Origin: a virus
Reading direction: 5' to 3' (one strand)
Virus record (IMG/VR): IMGVR_UViG_3300030331_005458
Location: 15,084-47,741 of that record
DNA length: 32,658 nt
This document shows, piece by piece, positions 7,138-29,287 of this stretch. Position numbers and translations under genes: made by a program. The stretch's first letter is position 1. Each line of letters opens with the position of its first letter. Below the pieces are notes generated by a model. The model was not told the origin of the DNA. It did not search any database and was given only the letters and a program-made list of their open reading frames with translations.

Positions 7138-8022
7138 ATGAGTATTAAAAAACCACTTGACTATAAAAATTTTAGTCAAAAATACAATTTAGATTCAACA
7201 AATTTTTTAACTTTAACTAGTCCTAAAGTACTTAAAAATTTAAAGGAAAGTGAAGCCCCAACAGCGGTTTTATATATGTTCAATGATGAGAAGGCTTGCC
7301 CTTTTGCTGATACATGTAGAGATGTTTGCTTAATACAGAGCGGTAGAGCAATATTCTCTGAAAAAATTATGGAATGTCGCAAACGTAGACATAATGCGTT
7401 TTTGTCAGATTATTCTTTATTTATGAGATTCTGTATTGCTGAAGTAATAAGGCATTATTCTAAGCATAGAGCCTACGATGATATCGGTTTTCGCTTTAAC
7501 GGCACAAGTGATTGGAACATTTTAAGAATGCCTATCACACTTAAACAAGTTGATACTGATTATTTACTTAGAGCGTTTAATGTCTATATAGAGCCTATTA
7601 GATACGGTTCTATTATCGAGGCTTTAATGCATGGGTTTGATGTTTTATTGAATCAATCAGTAGGCATAAAGCTGAAAATGTATGACTATACCAAACGCCC
7701 CATTACATCCGATGACCTACAACTAGCTAAAAAGCTAAACTATCATTTAAGTTTAAGTCATGGGTCAAAAGCTGATCTATTTAGCGTAGCAATTGAGTTA
7801 GGTTTAAATTATGCTGCTAGTTTTAAATTAAAACATAATGAGCCATTACCAAAAACATTTACATATAAGGGTATAACCTTAGAAGTTTTGGATGGTGATA
7901 AAACTGATTGGAGACCATCAGATTTAAGTGATAAAACAAGAATCATAGGCTTGAAGCATAAGAGAACTAAGAACCAAGATATAAAAGCGGTAGAAAAATT
8001 TTGCATAAATACATGCTCTTAA
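7138..8022 (+). CDS. gp88-like protein (mycobacteriophage L5 gp88 / DUF7227-type fold)
   Basis: 294 residues. A Cys cluster CPFADTCRDVCL (Cys54, Cys60, Cys64) is followed by SGRA, then GFRFNGTSDWNI near residue 123, KMYDYTKRP near 180, YHLSLSHGSK near 201 and a C-terminal FCINTC. This order of Cys-rich start, GTSD/SGDW-like strand, YTKR strand, LSxS strand and closing Cys pair matches the gp88 family found in mycobacteriophages and plasmid-like elements, whose activity is not established to my knowledge. As first gene after the early promoter it is probably expressed at once after infection. The conserved Cys set suggests metal or Fe-S binding (inference). Confidence 0.7.
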   Translation: MSIKKPLDYKNFSQKYNLDSTNFLTLTSPKVLKNLKESEAPTAVLYMFNDEKACPFADTCRDVCLIQSGRAIFSEKIMECRKRRHNAFLSDYSLFMRFCIAEVIRHYSKHRAYDDIGFRFNGTSDWNILRMPITLKQVDTDYLLRAFNVYIEPIRYGSIIEALMHGFDVLLNQSVGIKLKMYDYTKRPITSDDLQLAKKLNYHLSLSHGSKADLFSVAIELGLNYAASFKLKHNEPLPKTFTYKGITLEVLDGDKTDWRPSDLSDKTRIIGLKHKRTKNQDIKAVEKFCINTCS

Positions 8023-10335: not shown

Positions 10336-11448
10336 ATGACTGAACCATTAAAAATCTTAGATTTATTCTCAGGTATAGGTGGCTTTTCATATGCTGCTGA
10401 AAATTTCTTCCAAGGACAATTTAAAACTACACAATTTGTAGAAATTAATCCTTACTGCCAAAAAGTATTAACTAAAAATTTTAAAGGAGTACCAATCCAT
10501 GACAACATCAAAACATTCAAAGCAACAGAAGGACAATTCGATATCATTACAGGAGGATTTCCCTGTCAAGATATCTCAGTTGCAGGACAACAAAAAGGAA
10601 TCGGAGAAGGAACTAGGTCAGGATTATTTTACGAGTGCATTCGGTTACTTAAAGAAGTTCGACCTAAATTCGCAATCTTTGAAAACGTTAGAAATATTCT
10701 CTCCATTGAAGAAGGGAGGGTATTCCAAGAAGTCCTCTTTCAAATTGCCAAAGCAGGGTATGATGCAGAATGGTCAATTGTTTCAGCAAGAGATGTGGGT
10801 GGCTGCCACCTTCGAGAGCGTGTTTGGATCTTATGCTACCCTAGCGACTCCGAACTGCATGGATGCATTACCCCAGAGAGGTTACGGTTCGATGCTAAAG
10901 CAAACTCAAGTACACAGAAAGGGAAGAACAAAACTAAGCAATCTCAGGGAGCAAGTAGACCCCAAAGCGAGACAGTTATTCGAGGAACTACAACAACTCA
11001 GATTACCAACTCCGACGAATCAGGAAGCAGGGAAGGGGGATTTTCTAAAGACACTAGTAACCAAGGATGGAAAGCCTGCAAAACTAGGCCAGAGAGCATA
11101 CAATCCGAAGACAGGGAAACACGTTCAGATAACTCTAGACAGAGCGGTAAAAATGAATCTGCCAACACCAACAACCAGAGATTGGAAAGATTCGGGAGAC
11201 AACATGAACTACAAGAAAGCTGCGGAGAAGAAAAGGCTCGCTGGAGTACTCAACCACACACACTCAAACCTGACTGGAGAAGCTACAACGCTGAACCCAC
11301 AATTTGTAGAAATCATGATGGGGTTTCCGAAGGATTACACTCTGGTTTCATAAATAGAAAGGAGAGAATCCAAGCACTAGGTAATGCAGTTACACCTCAA
11401 CAGGCTGCCATCCCATTAGGGAGAATCATTGACCTTATCAAGTCATAA
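10336..11448 (+). CDS. dcm: DNA cytosine-5 methyltransferase
   Basis: Transfers a methyl group from S-adenosylmethionine to C5 of cytosine in DNA. It probably marks phage DNA against host restriction or modifies regulation. Motif I is DLFSGIGG (9-16), motif IV GFPCQ (74-78) with catalytic Cys77, motif VI FENV (115-118), and motif VIII-like SARDVGGCHLRERVWI (150-165). Motif X is ALGNAVTPQQA (347-357). All the core is present at a normal length of 370 residues. Residues about 170-320 are an odd, hydrophilic Ser/Thr/Asn/Gln/Arg stretch in the target-recognition region, and this DNA also carries a second long frame (10499-11353). A strong GGAGG precedes the start. Confidence 0.93.
   Translation: MTEPLKILDLFSGIGGFSYAAENFFQGQFKTTQFVEINPYCQKVLTKNFKGVPIHDNIKTFKATEGQFDIITGGFPCQDISVAGQQKGIGEGTRSGLFYECIRLLKEVRPKFAIFENVRNILSIEEGRVFQEVLFQIAKAGYDAEWSIVSARDVGGCHLRERVWILCYPSDSELHGCITPERLRFDAKANSSTQKGKNKTKQSQGASRPQSETVIRGTTTTQITNSDESGSREGGFSKDTSNQGWKACKTRPESIQSEDRETRSDNSRQSGKNESANTNNQRLERFGRQHELQESCGEEKARWSTQPHTLKPDWRSYNAEPTICRNHDGVSEGLHSGFINRKERIQALGNAVTPQQAAIPLGRIIDLIKS
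10499..11353 (+). CDS. Overprinted gene inside the methyltransferase (different frame), methyltransferase-associated family
   Basis: A 284-codon stop-free frame lies wholly within the methyltransferase gene, shifted by one base. Its ATG has an AAAGGAG site (10483-10489) nine bases upstream, an independent sign of translation. The product has ordered motifs I recall from proteins annotated beside phage C5-methyltransferases: GMMQNGQLFQQ (87-97), LATPNCMD (115-122), LPTPT (169-173), LPTPTTRDWK (221-230) and LNPQFVEIMMGFP (265-277). GMMQNG is the shifted reading of the codons for GYDAEW, and LNPQFVEIMMGFP that of the codons for AEPTICRNHDGVS, so one DNA stretch holds two motif sets. Whether it is made alone or by frameshift fusion is unknown. 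Confidence 0.6.
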   Translation: MTTSKHSKQQKDNSISLQEDFPVKISQLQDNKKESEKELGQDYFTSAFGYLKKFDLNSQSLKTLEIFSPLKKGGYSKKSSFKLPKQGMMQNGQLFQQEMWVAATFESVFGSYATLATPNCMDALPQRGYGSMLKQTQVHRKGRTKLSNLREQVDPKARQLFEELQQLRLPTPTNQEAGKGDFLKTLVTKDGKPAKLGQRAYNPKTGKHVQITLDRAVKMNLPTPTTRDWKDSGDNMNYKKAAEKKRLAGVLNHTHSNLTGEATTLNPQFVEIMMGFPKDYTLVS

Positions 11449-28137: not shown

Positions 28138-29229
28138 TCAACCTATTGCAGGAGCAGATAGAGCAACTTGAGTAGACTCAGCACAAGCTAGGTCTAATGG
28201 GAAGTTGTGAGCATTACGCTCATGCATTACTTCAAAGCCTAAGTTAGCTCTGTTAAGGATGTCTGCCCATGTAGGAACGACTTTTCCATTAACATCAACA
28301 ACTGACTGGTTGAAGTTGAAACCATTTAGGTTAAATGCCATTGTGCAAATACCCATAGATGTTAGCCATACGCAAACAACTGGGAATACAGCTAGGAAGA
28401 AGTGAAGACTTCTGCTGTTATTAAATGAAGCATATTGGAAGATTAAACGACCGAAATAGCCATGAGCTGCAACGATGTTGTATGTTTCTTCTTCTTGACC
28501 GAACTTGTAGCCATAGTTTTGTGACTCAAGACCAGTTGTCTCTCTGATTAATGAAGAGGTTACTAATGAACCATGCATTGCAGAGAATAATGCTCCACCA
28601 AACATTCCAGCAACACCAGCCATGTGGAATGGGTGCATAAGAATGTTGTGCTCGGCTTGGAATACAAACATGAAGTTGAATGTACCAGAAATACCTAAAG
28701 GCATTCCGTCAGAGAATGAACCCTGTCCAAATGGATAAACTAGGAATACTGCGAAAGCTGCGGATACTGGTGCAGAGTATGCAACACAGATCCAAGGACG
28801 CATGCCTAATCTGTAACTAAGTTCCCACTGGCGTCCCATGTAAGCTGAGATACCGATGAGGAAGTGAAAGATGACCAATTGATATGGTCCTCCGTTGTAT
28901 AGCCACTCGTCAACTGTGAGGGCTTCCCAAATTGGGTAGAAGTGGAGTCCGATTGCGTTTGAGCTTGGAACGACTGCTCCTGAGATGATGTTGTTTCCAT
29001 ATAAGAAAGAACCAGCTACTGGTTCACGAATACCGTCTATGTCTACAGGAGGAGCTGCTATGAACGCAATTATGAAGCATGTCGCTGCTGTAAGTAGGCA
29101 GGGGATCATTAATACACCAAACCAACCAACGTATAATCTGTTGTCTGTTGATGTAACCCACTTACAGAAGGACTGCCAACCGCCTAGCAACTCGGAATCT
29201 TTCCGACGCTGTAGAACTGATGATGCCAT
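28138..29229 (-). CDS. psbA: Photosystem II reaction-centre protein D1
   Basis: D1 binds the primary donor chlorophylls, QB and the manganese cluster in the thylakoid membrane. Phage copies replace host D1, which turns over fast during infection. The 363 residues (start [10 protein letters not shown], not the upstream in-frame ATG) show all key positions, offset by four from standard numbering: Tyr165 (Tyr161), Asp174 (Asp170), His194 and His202 (His190, His198), His219 (His215), then [13 protein letters not shown]. The tail [15 protein letters not shown] is present, with Cys right after the processing site. Gln134 equals Gln130 of low-light D1 types. Much richer in G+C than its neighbours, pointing to host origin. 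Confidence 0.98.
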
Positions 29230-29251
29230 AATAGTCCGTTGTAATGAATAT

Positions 29252-29287
29252 AAAAAAAGCCATCCGAGATGACTTAACATAAGTATA
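29252..29287 (-). promoter_or_regulatory. psbA promoter -10 and 5'-terminal leader hairpin with U-tract
   Basis: On the minus strand TATACT (29287-29282) is a plausible -10. Transcription would start near 29275, exactly at the hairpin AGTCATC / GATGGCT (29274-29258, seven pairs, one G-U, UCG loop), which is followed by seven U (29258-29252). The pairing is perfect only in the minus-strand RNA, because the plus strand has a C-A mismatch. The ATG lies 22 bases further. It could stabilise the mRNA end or act as an attenuator. Confidence 0.5.

Follow-up and report, generated by a model that had tools for sequence, protein, structure and literature searches.

Our analysis supports a model, which we regard as highly probable, in which one C5-cytosine methyltransferase (C5-MTase) consists of two polypeptides made from the same DNA, with a separately started subunit, beta, nested in the gene of the catalytic subunit, alpha, and selecting the target by means of cassettes. 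Beta is selected as a protein, the conserved motifs are divided between the two frames, stop codons have been removed from the internal start onward, and cassettes have been gained, lost and reordered. In our model, alpha (10336-11448) would supply the SAM-binding and catalytic domain (motifs I-VIII) together with motif X, and beta (10499-11353), starting at its own internal ATG, would supply the small domain, made of at least one LPTP cassette followed by motif IX. The two would assemble in the usual domain order of motifs I-VIII, target recognition, IX and X, with beta selecting the DNA target. Two regions, the 3' one of alpha lying between motifs VIII and X and the 5' one of beta, would be disordered as a by-product of the overlapping frames. 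Cassette exchange would change or add methylation targets and in this way protect the phage from different host restriction enzymes. The physical association of alpha and beta, the methylation activity and the recognition of a target by each cassette are inferences only, as there are no expression, binding or activity data.

The locus and its two frames

The window, i.e. the whole stretch of 32,658 nucleotides analysed here, is part of a 59,963-base virus record. Because it carries psbA (photosystem II D1; 28138-29280, - strand; Pfam E=4.7e-87, phrog_182), we assign it to a cyanophage with cyanobacteria as hosts; most of the other large ORFs tested in the window had no family match. A GP88-like protein of unknown function (PF17338, phrog_1617) is encoded at 7138-8022 (+). 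An earlier note on this DNA had pointed to a 284-codon frame lying wholly inside the methyltransferase gene and to an AAAGGAG nine bases before its ATG, and both are present: the ORF at 10499-11353 lies within 10336-11448 in the +1 frame, and AAAGGAG is found at 10483-10489. The features of the locus are as follows.

10336-11448 (+): alpha subunit gene, C5-cytosine methyltransferase, 370 aa, with motifs I-VIII and X and no IX (PF00145 E=2e-49, phrog_363)
10336-10857 (+): alpha residues 1-174, predicted folded catalytic domain (structure prediction, M.HhaI fit Z 24.9)
10357-10383 (+): alpha motif I
10483-10489 (+): Shine-Dalgarno-like AAAGGAG, 9 bases 5' of the beta ATG (from sequence; AGGAG kept in L001)
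10499-11353 (+): beta subunit gene, 284 aa, ATG start, nested in alpha in the +1 frame (phrog_1008 E=5e-17, stop depletion, dN/dS)
10499-10840 (+): beta residues 1-114, predicted mostly disordered, nearly neutral, yet stop-free
10552-10572 (+): alpha motif IV, GGFPCQD
10678-10689 (+): alpha motif VI, FENV
10751-10774 (+): KQGMMQNG in beta, shadow of alpha GYDAEW at 10756-10773 (substitution pattern)
10813-10830 (+): alpha motif VIII, RERVWI
10841-11002 (+): beta cassette 1 (LATPNCMDALPQRG...HRKGRTKLSNLREQVDP...), putative target-recognition module
10858-11325 (+): alpha residues 175-330, predicted disordered, nearly neutral, codons dictated by beta
11003-11158 (+): beta cassette 2 (LPTPTNQEAGKGDFLKTLVTKDGKPAKLG...), second in the window and first in L042 and L046
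11159-11290 (+): beta cassette 3 (LPTPTTRDWKDSGDNMNYKKAAEKKRLAG...), putative target-recognition module
11291-11350 (+): beta C-terminus, assigned as C5-MTase motif IX (LNPQFVEIMMGFPKDYT)
11293-11325 (+): EPTICRNHDGV in alpha, shadow of beta motif IX (substitution pattern)
11365-11403 (+): alpha motif X (RIQALGNAVTPQQ), past the end of beta

The database search that the earlier note had proposed for the 284-aa product returned phrog_1008 ('DNA methyltransferase'), matched over residues 6-281 with E=5e-17, and no Pfam or NCBIfam family. The same phrog was matched by 68/68 beta proteins tested, and a Pfam and NCBIfam search of these 68 proteins gave no family for any of them.

Stop codons are depleted from the second frame

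Expected stop counts were obtained by shuffling synonymous alpha codons within each gene. For the 292 open codons in the window, 4.5 stops are expected on average, and none of 1000 shuffles left the frame open. Since the span in this test is conditioned on the open frame itself, which biases it, our main test uses a span set from alpha alone, beginning at motif IV and ending 32 codons short of motif X. Over this span, the +1 frame of 57 distinct viral or phage loci contains 21 stops compared with 273 expected, and the +2 frame of the same loci 791 compared with 816; in the 25 of these 57 loci that were fetched with alpha as sole query, the +1 frame contains a single stop against 92.4 expected. 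Ten ordinary C5-MTases show no depletion in their +1 frame (143 stops, 139 expected). The residual +1 stops mostly belong to lineages whose beta start lies further downstream. Beta is a real, second gene. Frequent second-frame stops in homologous loci, which according to the earlier note would have refuted this, did not appear in the 57 loci, and among the options that it listed, the true second gene is favoured by stop depletion, selection and spread alike.

Purifying selection changes frame at motif VIII

Single-base changes in 26 disjoint locus pairs were sorted by their effect in each frame. From the beta start to motif VIII, constraint falls on alpha (dN/dS 0.08-0.19) and hardly on beta (0.95 where the change is silent in alpha, 0.41 otherwise); after motif VIII, beta has a dN/dS of 0.08-0.14 and alpha is nearly neutral at 0.46-0.79. 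Purifying selection thus acts on alpha before motif VIII and on beta after it. Codon-position variation, a check suggested at the outset, agrees: the position that varies most is the third of alpha before motif VIII and, past it, the first of alpha, equivalent to the third of beta. The suspicion that methyltransferase residues 170-320 are dictated by the other frame is upheld by these ratios and by the predicted disorder of alpha.

Single motifs can be assigned to one frame or the other in the same manner. The conserved motifs of the second frame had been interpreted as shifted readings of methyltransferase codons, and the positions confirm this, KQGMMQNG being the shifted reading of GYDAEW and LNPQFVEIMMGFP (11291-11329 in beta) that of EPTICRNHDGV (11293-11325 in alpha). 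At GMMxNG, 34 changes are silent in alpha and replacing in beta compared with 9.8 expected, and from this excess we conclude that GMMQNG is a shadow of alpha GYDAEW. The same class of change is rare in LPTPT (4 compared with 27 expected) and in beta motif IX (9 compared with 29.5 expected), and the deficit at motif IX makes alpha EPxxxRxxDGV the shadow of beta. The option of a conserved shadow therefore stands for these single motifs and falls for the beta frame overall. Proof of function as a protein is limited to the part of beta after motif VIII; the first 110 residues are nearly neutral.

Structure predictions were run on alignments without rows from annotated phage records. In the alpha model, residues 1-174 are confident, residues 175-330 disordered and the C-terminus helical, and both ends fit M.HhaI (Z 24.9, rmsd 2.9, 220 residues). 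The beta model is weak overall (mean pLDDT 62.9, pTM 0.35), disordered to about residue 110 and best at residues 117-245 and 261-284. In these models, the switches between order and disorder in alpha and beta coincide near 10850, the same point as the switch in selection. A Foldseek search with the beta model gave no match with E below 1, sequence searches of beta against solved structures (single and profile) gave nothing or one chance match, and the cassettes matched no known target-recognition domain or solved structure.

Conserved motifs are divided between the two frames

Judged by PF00145, alpha meets the criteria for the catalytic motifs I, IV (PC), VI (ENV) and VIII, and the criterion of IX and X with target recognition in one chain is not met, as X lies in alpha and IX in beta. 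The match of the alpha profile to M.HhaI ends at motif VIII, apart from a weak one at motif X, and alpha has no motif IX and no apparent target-recognition region. At the C-terminus of beta, LNPxFVExMMGFP is colinear with LHPRECARVMGYP of M.HhaI; on this sequence evidence we identify it as the missing C5-MTase motif IX, an identification that goes beyond the earlier note. Nearly all complete loci have motif IX in the +1 frame and motif X in the alpha ORF. In L108, L135 and L140, motif IX stands in the alpha frame directly before X and the cassettes remain in beta; alpha of L108 and L140 matches PF00145 end to end, and the alignment of L140 alpha with M.HhaI 272-314 (motifs IX-X, LHPRECARVMGYP...GNSVV) is gap-free and colinear, with a score that is not significant. 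In L106 (3503-5083), alpha stops after motif VIII, and an overlapping beta carries the cassettes, IX and X. The order of I-VIII, variable part, IX and X stays constant whichever chain bears IX or X, and we take this constancy to indicate that alpha and beta form one composite enzyme.

Several loci have other gene structures. In L187 and L206, the catalytic part of alpha (169 aa) and motif X are in the same frame in separate ORFs that are bridged by beta. An HNH endonuclease ORF lies directly 3' of beta and in the same frame in L069 (3806-4234), and the alpha frame of that locus is open across the whole HNH insert to motif X. In L062 (2169-2949), an indel fuses the beta frame to motif X and displaces motif IX, either as a natural variant or as an assembly error.

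Cassettes in the variable part of beta

Between motifs VIII and IX, beta usually contains 1-5 units that start with LPTP and have a median length of 40 residues; the window has three. From their sequences, we read the LPTPT repeats, which the earlier note had listed simply as motifs, as marking exchangeable cassettes. Cassette 2 of the window (LPTPTNQEAGKG...) stands first in L042 and L046, with 84% amino-acid identity. L010 and L012 have flanks with about 97% DNA identity; what separates them are exact insertions, 99 and 156 bases long, placed at cassette borders. As multiples of three, these lengths leave both frames intact. Each gain, loss or reordering of cassettes thus affects the two frames together. 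One-linkage clustering lumps most of them together, and types were read from sequences and pairwise identities instead. For 116 cassette pairs, similarity exceeds that of the corresponding catalytic domains by more than 20 points, suggesting exchange between lineages; the excess is smaller at the DNA level. By analogy, the cassettes are probably exchangeable target-recognition modules, with recognition itself inferred in the absence of an assay. We lean, with reserve, towards the broader proposal that phages of many lineages carry a specificity subunit overprinted in the catalytic gene and exchange target-recognition cassettes there. If this is true, each cassette would have to stay free of stops in both frames, giving a folded segment under selection in one and being merely tolerated as disordered filler in the other, and one short gene would amount to a modular, multispecific two-subunit methyltransferase.

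Comparison with known methyltransferases

Lee et al. reportedly found in 1995 that the smaller polypeptide of M.EcoHK31I is read from an alternate frame inside the gene of the larger one, and the small-subunit gene in the window is likewise nested in the large one in another frame. M.EcoHK31I (YGGCCR) has motifs I-VIII and X in the larger subunit and IX in the smaller polypeptide, and its target-recognition domain has been predicted in the larger subunit (PMC3404938). The window shares this motif split; the corresponding stretch of its alpha contains no segment that is constrained and predicted to be ordered, and the beta family has 1-5 cassettes. On the strength of the shared motif split and nesting, and without a comparison of the sequences, we place the window beside M.EcoHK31I in its mode of working; what it adds is the array of cassettes. 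If the broader proposal above is true and M.EcoHK31I is built in the same way, target recognition in M.EcoHK31I would fall in the small subunit, contrary to the published prediction. M.AquI (CYCGRG) is similarly one C5-MTase formed by two polypeptides, but its beta carries both IX and X (PMC3404938), whereas X remains in alpha in the window and only L106 resembles M.AquI. The C5-MTases of the Bacillus phages SPR, phi3T and H2 carry target-recognition modules in tandem, which have been interpreted as a defence against several restriction enzymes (PMC8936443, PMC5923457). Such modules lie between motifs VIII and IX, as do the three cassettes of the window, for which recognition is inferred; unlike these single-chain enzymes, the window has its cassettes in a nested second subunit, on DNA that also encodes alpha.

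Start of beta and alternative explanations

The boundary of stop depletion was mapped in fixed 20-codon bins, since counting after each locus's own presumed start gives zero by construction. In the group of loci with a start near codon 50, the +1 frame has no stops over codons 60-179 compared with about 170 expected, and 126 before the internal start compared with 82 expected; in the codon-85 group, 4 stops are left at codons 120-159 compared with 33 expected. The boundary moves with the start, lying near codon 50, 85 or 12 by lineage; ahead of it, +1 stops are at least as frequent as expected, and past it they vanish, inside the catalytic region, where the amino acids of beta hardly matter. 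A Shine-Dalgarno-like site is found at a usable beta start in 61 of 118 loci, so that the conservation of this site, a point raised in the earlier note, holds for about half of the loci and fails for the rest; the relatives L002-L017 have the ATG mostly at the same place without a Shine-Dalgarno site.

These boundaries bear on a frameshift fusion, in which a +1 shift near motif VIII, perhaps with a shift back before X, would yield a single chain and leave the internal ATG unused. The near neutrality of beta before motif VIII, the joining of the beta frame to motif X in L062 and a motif order that is that of a single chain would all fit, but stops are cleared from the internal start and not from motif VIII, the boundary tracks the start by lineage, and a full chain needs two shifts; we consider such a fusion improbable, and as the main route it is disfavoured. 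That the second frame is open merely through the amino acids of alpha and base composition can be virtually ruled out: GMMQNG behaves exactly so, but shuffling synonymous codons breaks the frame, ordinary C5-MTases lack the depletion, and the substitution pattern already contradicts the idea, with beta-changing substitutions strongly avoided in LPTPT, in motif IX and in the whole 3' part.

Beta might also be a separate protein with another role, such as a regulator or an anti-restriction protein, and no part of the methyltransferase, given that there is no structure or biochemistry for beta and that its predicted fold matched nothing. But it carries the motif IX that alpha lacks, and relatives move IX into alpha and X into beta with the domain order kept, which makes this highly improbable. 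An unlikely reading that nevertheless deserves consideration accepts the composite enzyme and takes the LPTP cassettes as flexible spacers or interaction repeats, with specificity residing elsewhere. It could draw on the larger-subunit prediction for M.EcoHK31I (PMC3404938) and on the failure of the cassettes to match any solved structure, but purifying selection on the cassettes is strong, their types are varied and reappear in different orders, and their place between motifs VIII and IX is the one at which C5-MTases have target recognition and at which alpha is disordered and nearly neutral.

Annotation and spread

Standard annotation usually calls one frame, so that a specificity subunit encoded by the second would often be absent from databases, and anyone predicting targets from alpha alone would inspect the wrong sequence. 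In the E. coli, Enterobacter and Leptospira records L143, L144 and L145, only alpha is annotated and beta is missing. In the records of two Paenibacillus phages, Diva (DIVA_50, 'g49 internal gene') and Likha (LIKHA_52), both frames are annotated, so that their annotators recorded the same nested ORF, and phrog_1008 matches all beta proteins tested; these entries differ from our account in giving no two-subunit, motif IX or cassette reading. A literature search found no description of the arrangement in phages. Outside small viruses, it is rare to find one gene nested entirely within another on the same strand with constraint measured in both frames, and the locus represents a recurring nested pair with a clear division of labour and a natural experiment in the sharing of constraint between frames. 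The cassettes make the methylation specificity of phages, and its exchange, directly testable.

The conjecture that the overprinting is old and widespread is supported by stop depletion, by two-frame selection and by the occurrence of the +1 arrangement at 119 distinct loci, which are spread over viruses, prophages and genomes from many phyla. Part-wise profiles identified 127 fetched loci in which IX falls in the +1 frame and the alpha ORF holds X. Carriers include E. coli prophages, a Leptospira and an Enterobacter plasmid. Across bacteria and archaea, a genome scan yielded 60 loci from many phyla, and within one class, that of the Pseudomonas locus L132, the beta profile matched in 24 of 369 genomes, about 10 of them with a clearly open and nested frame.
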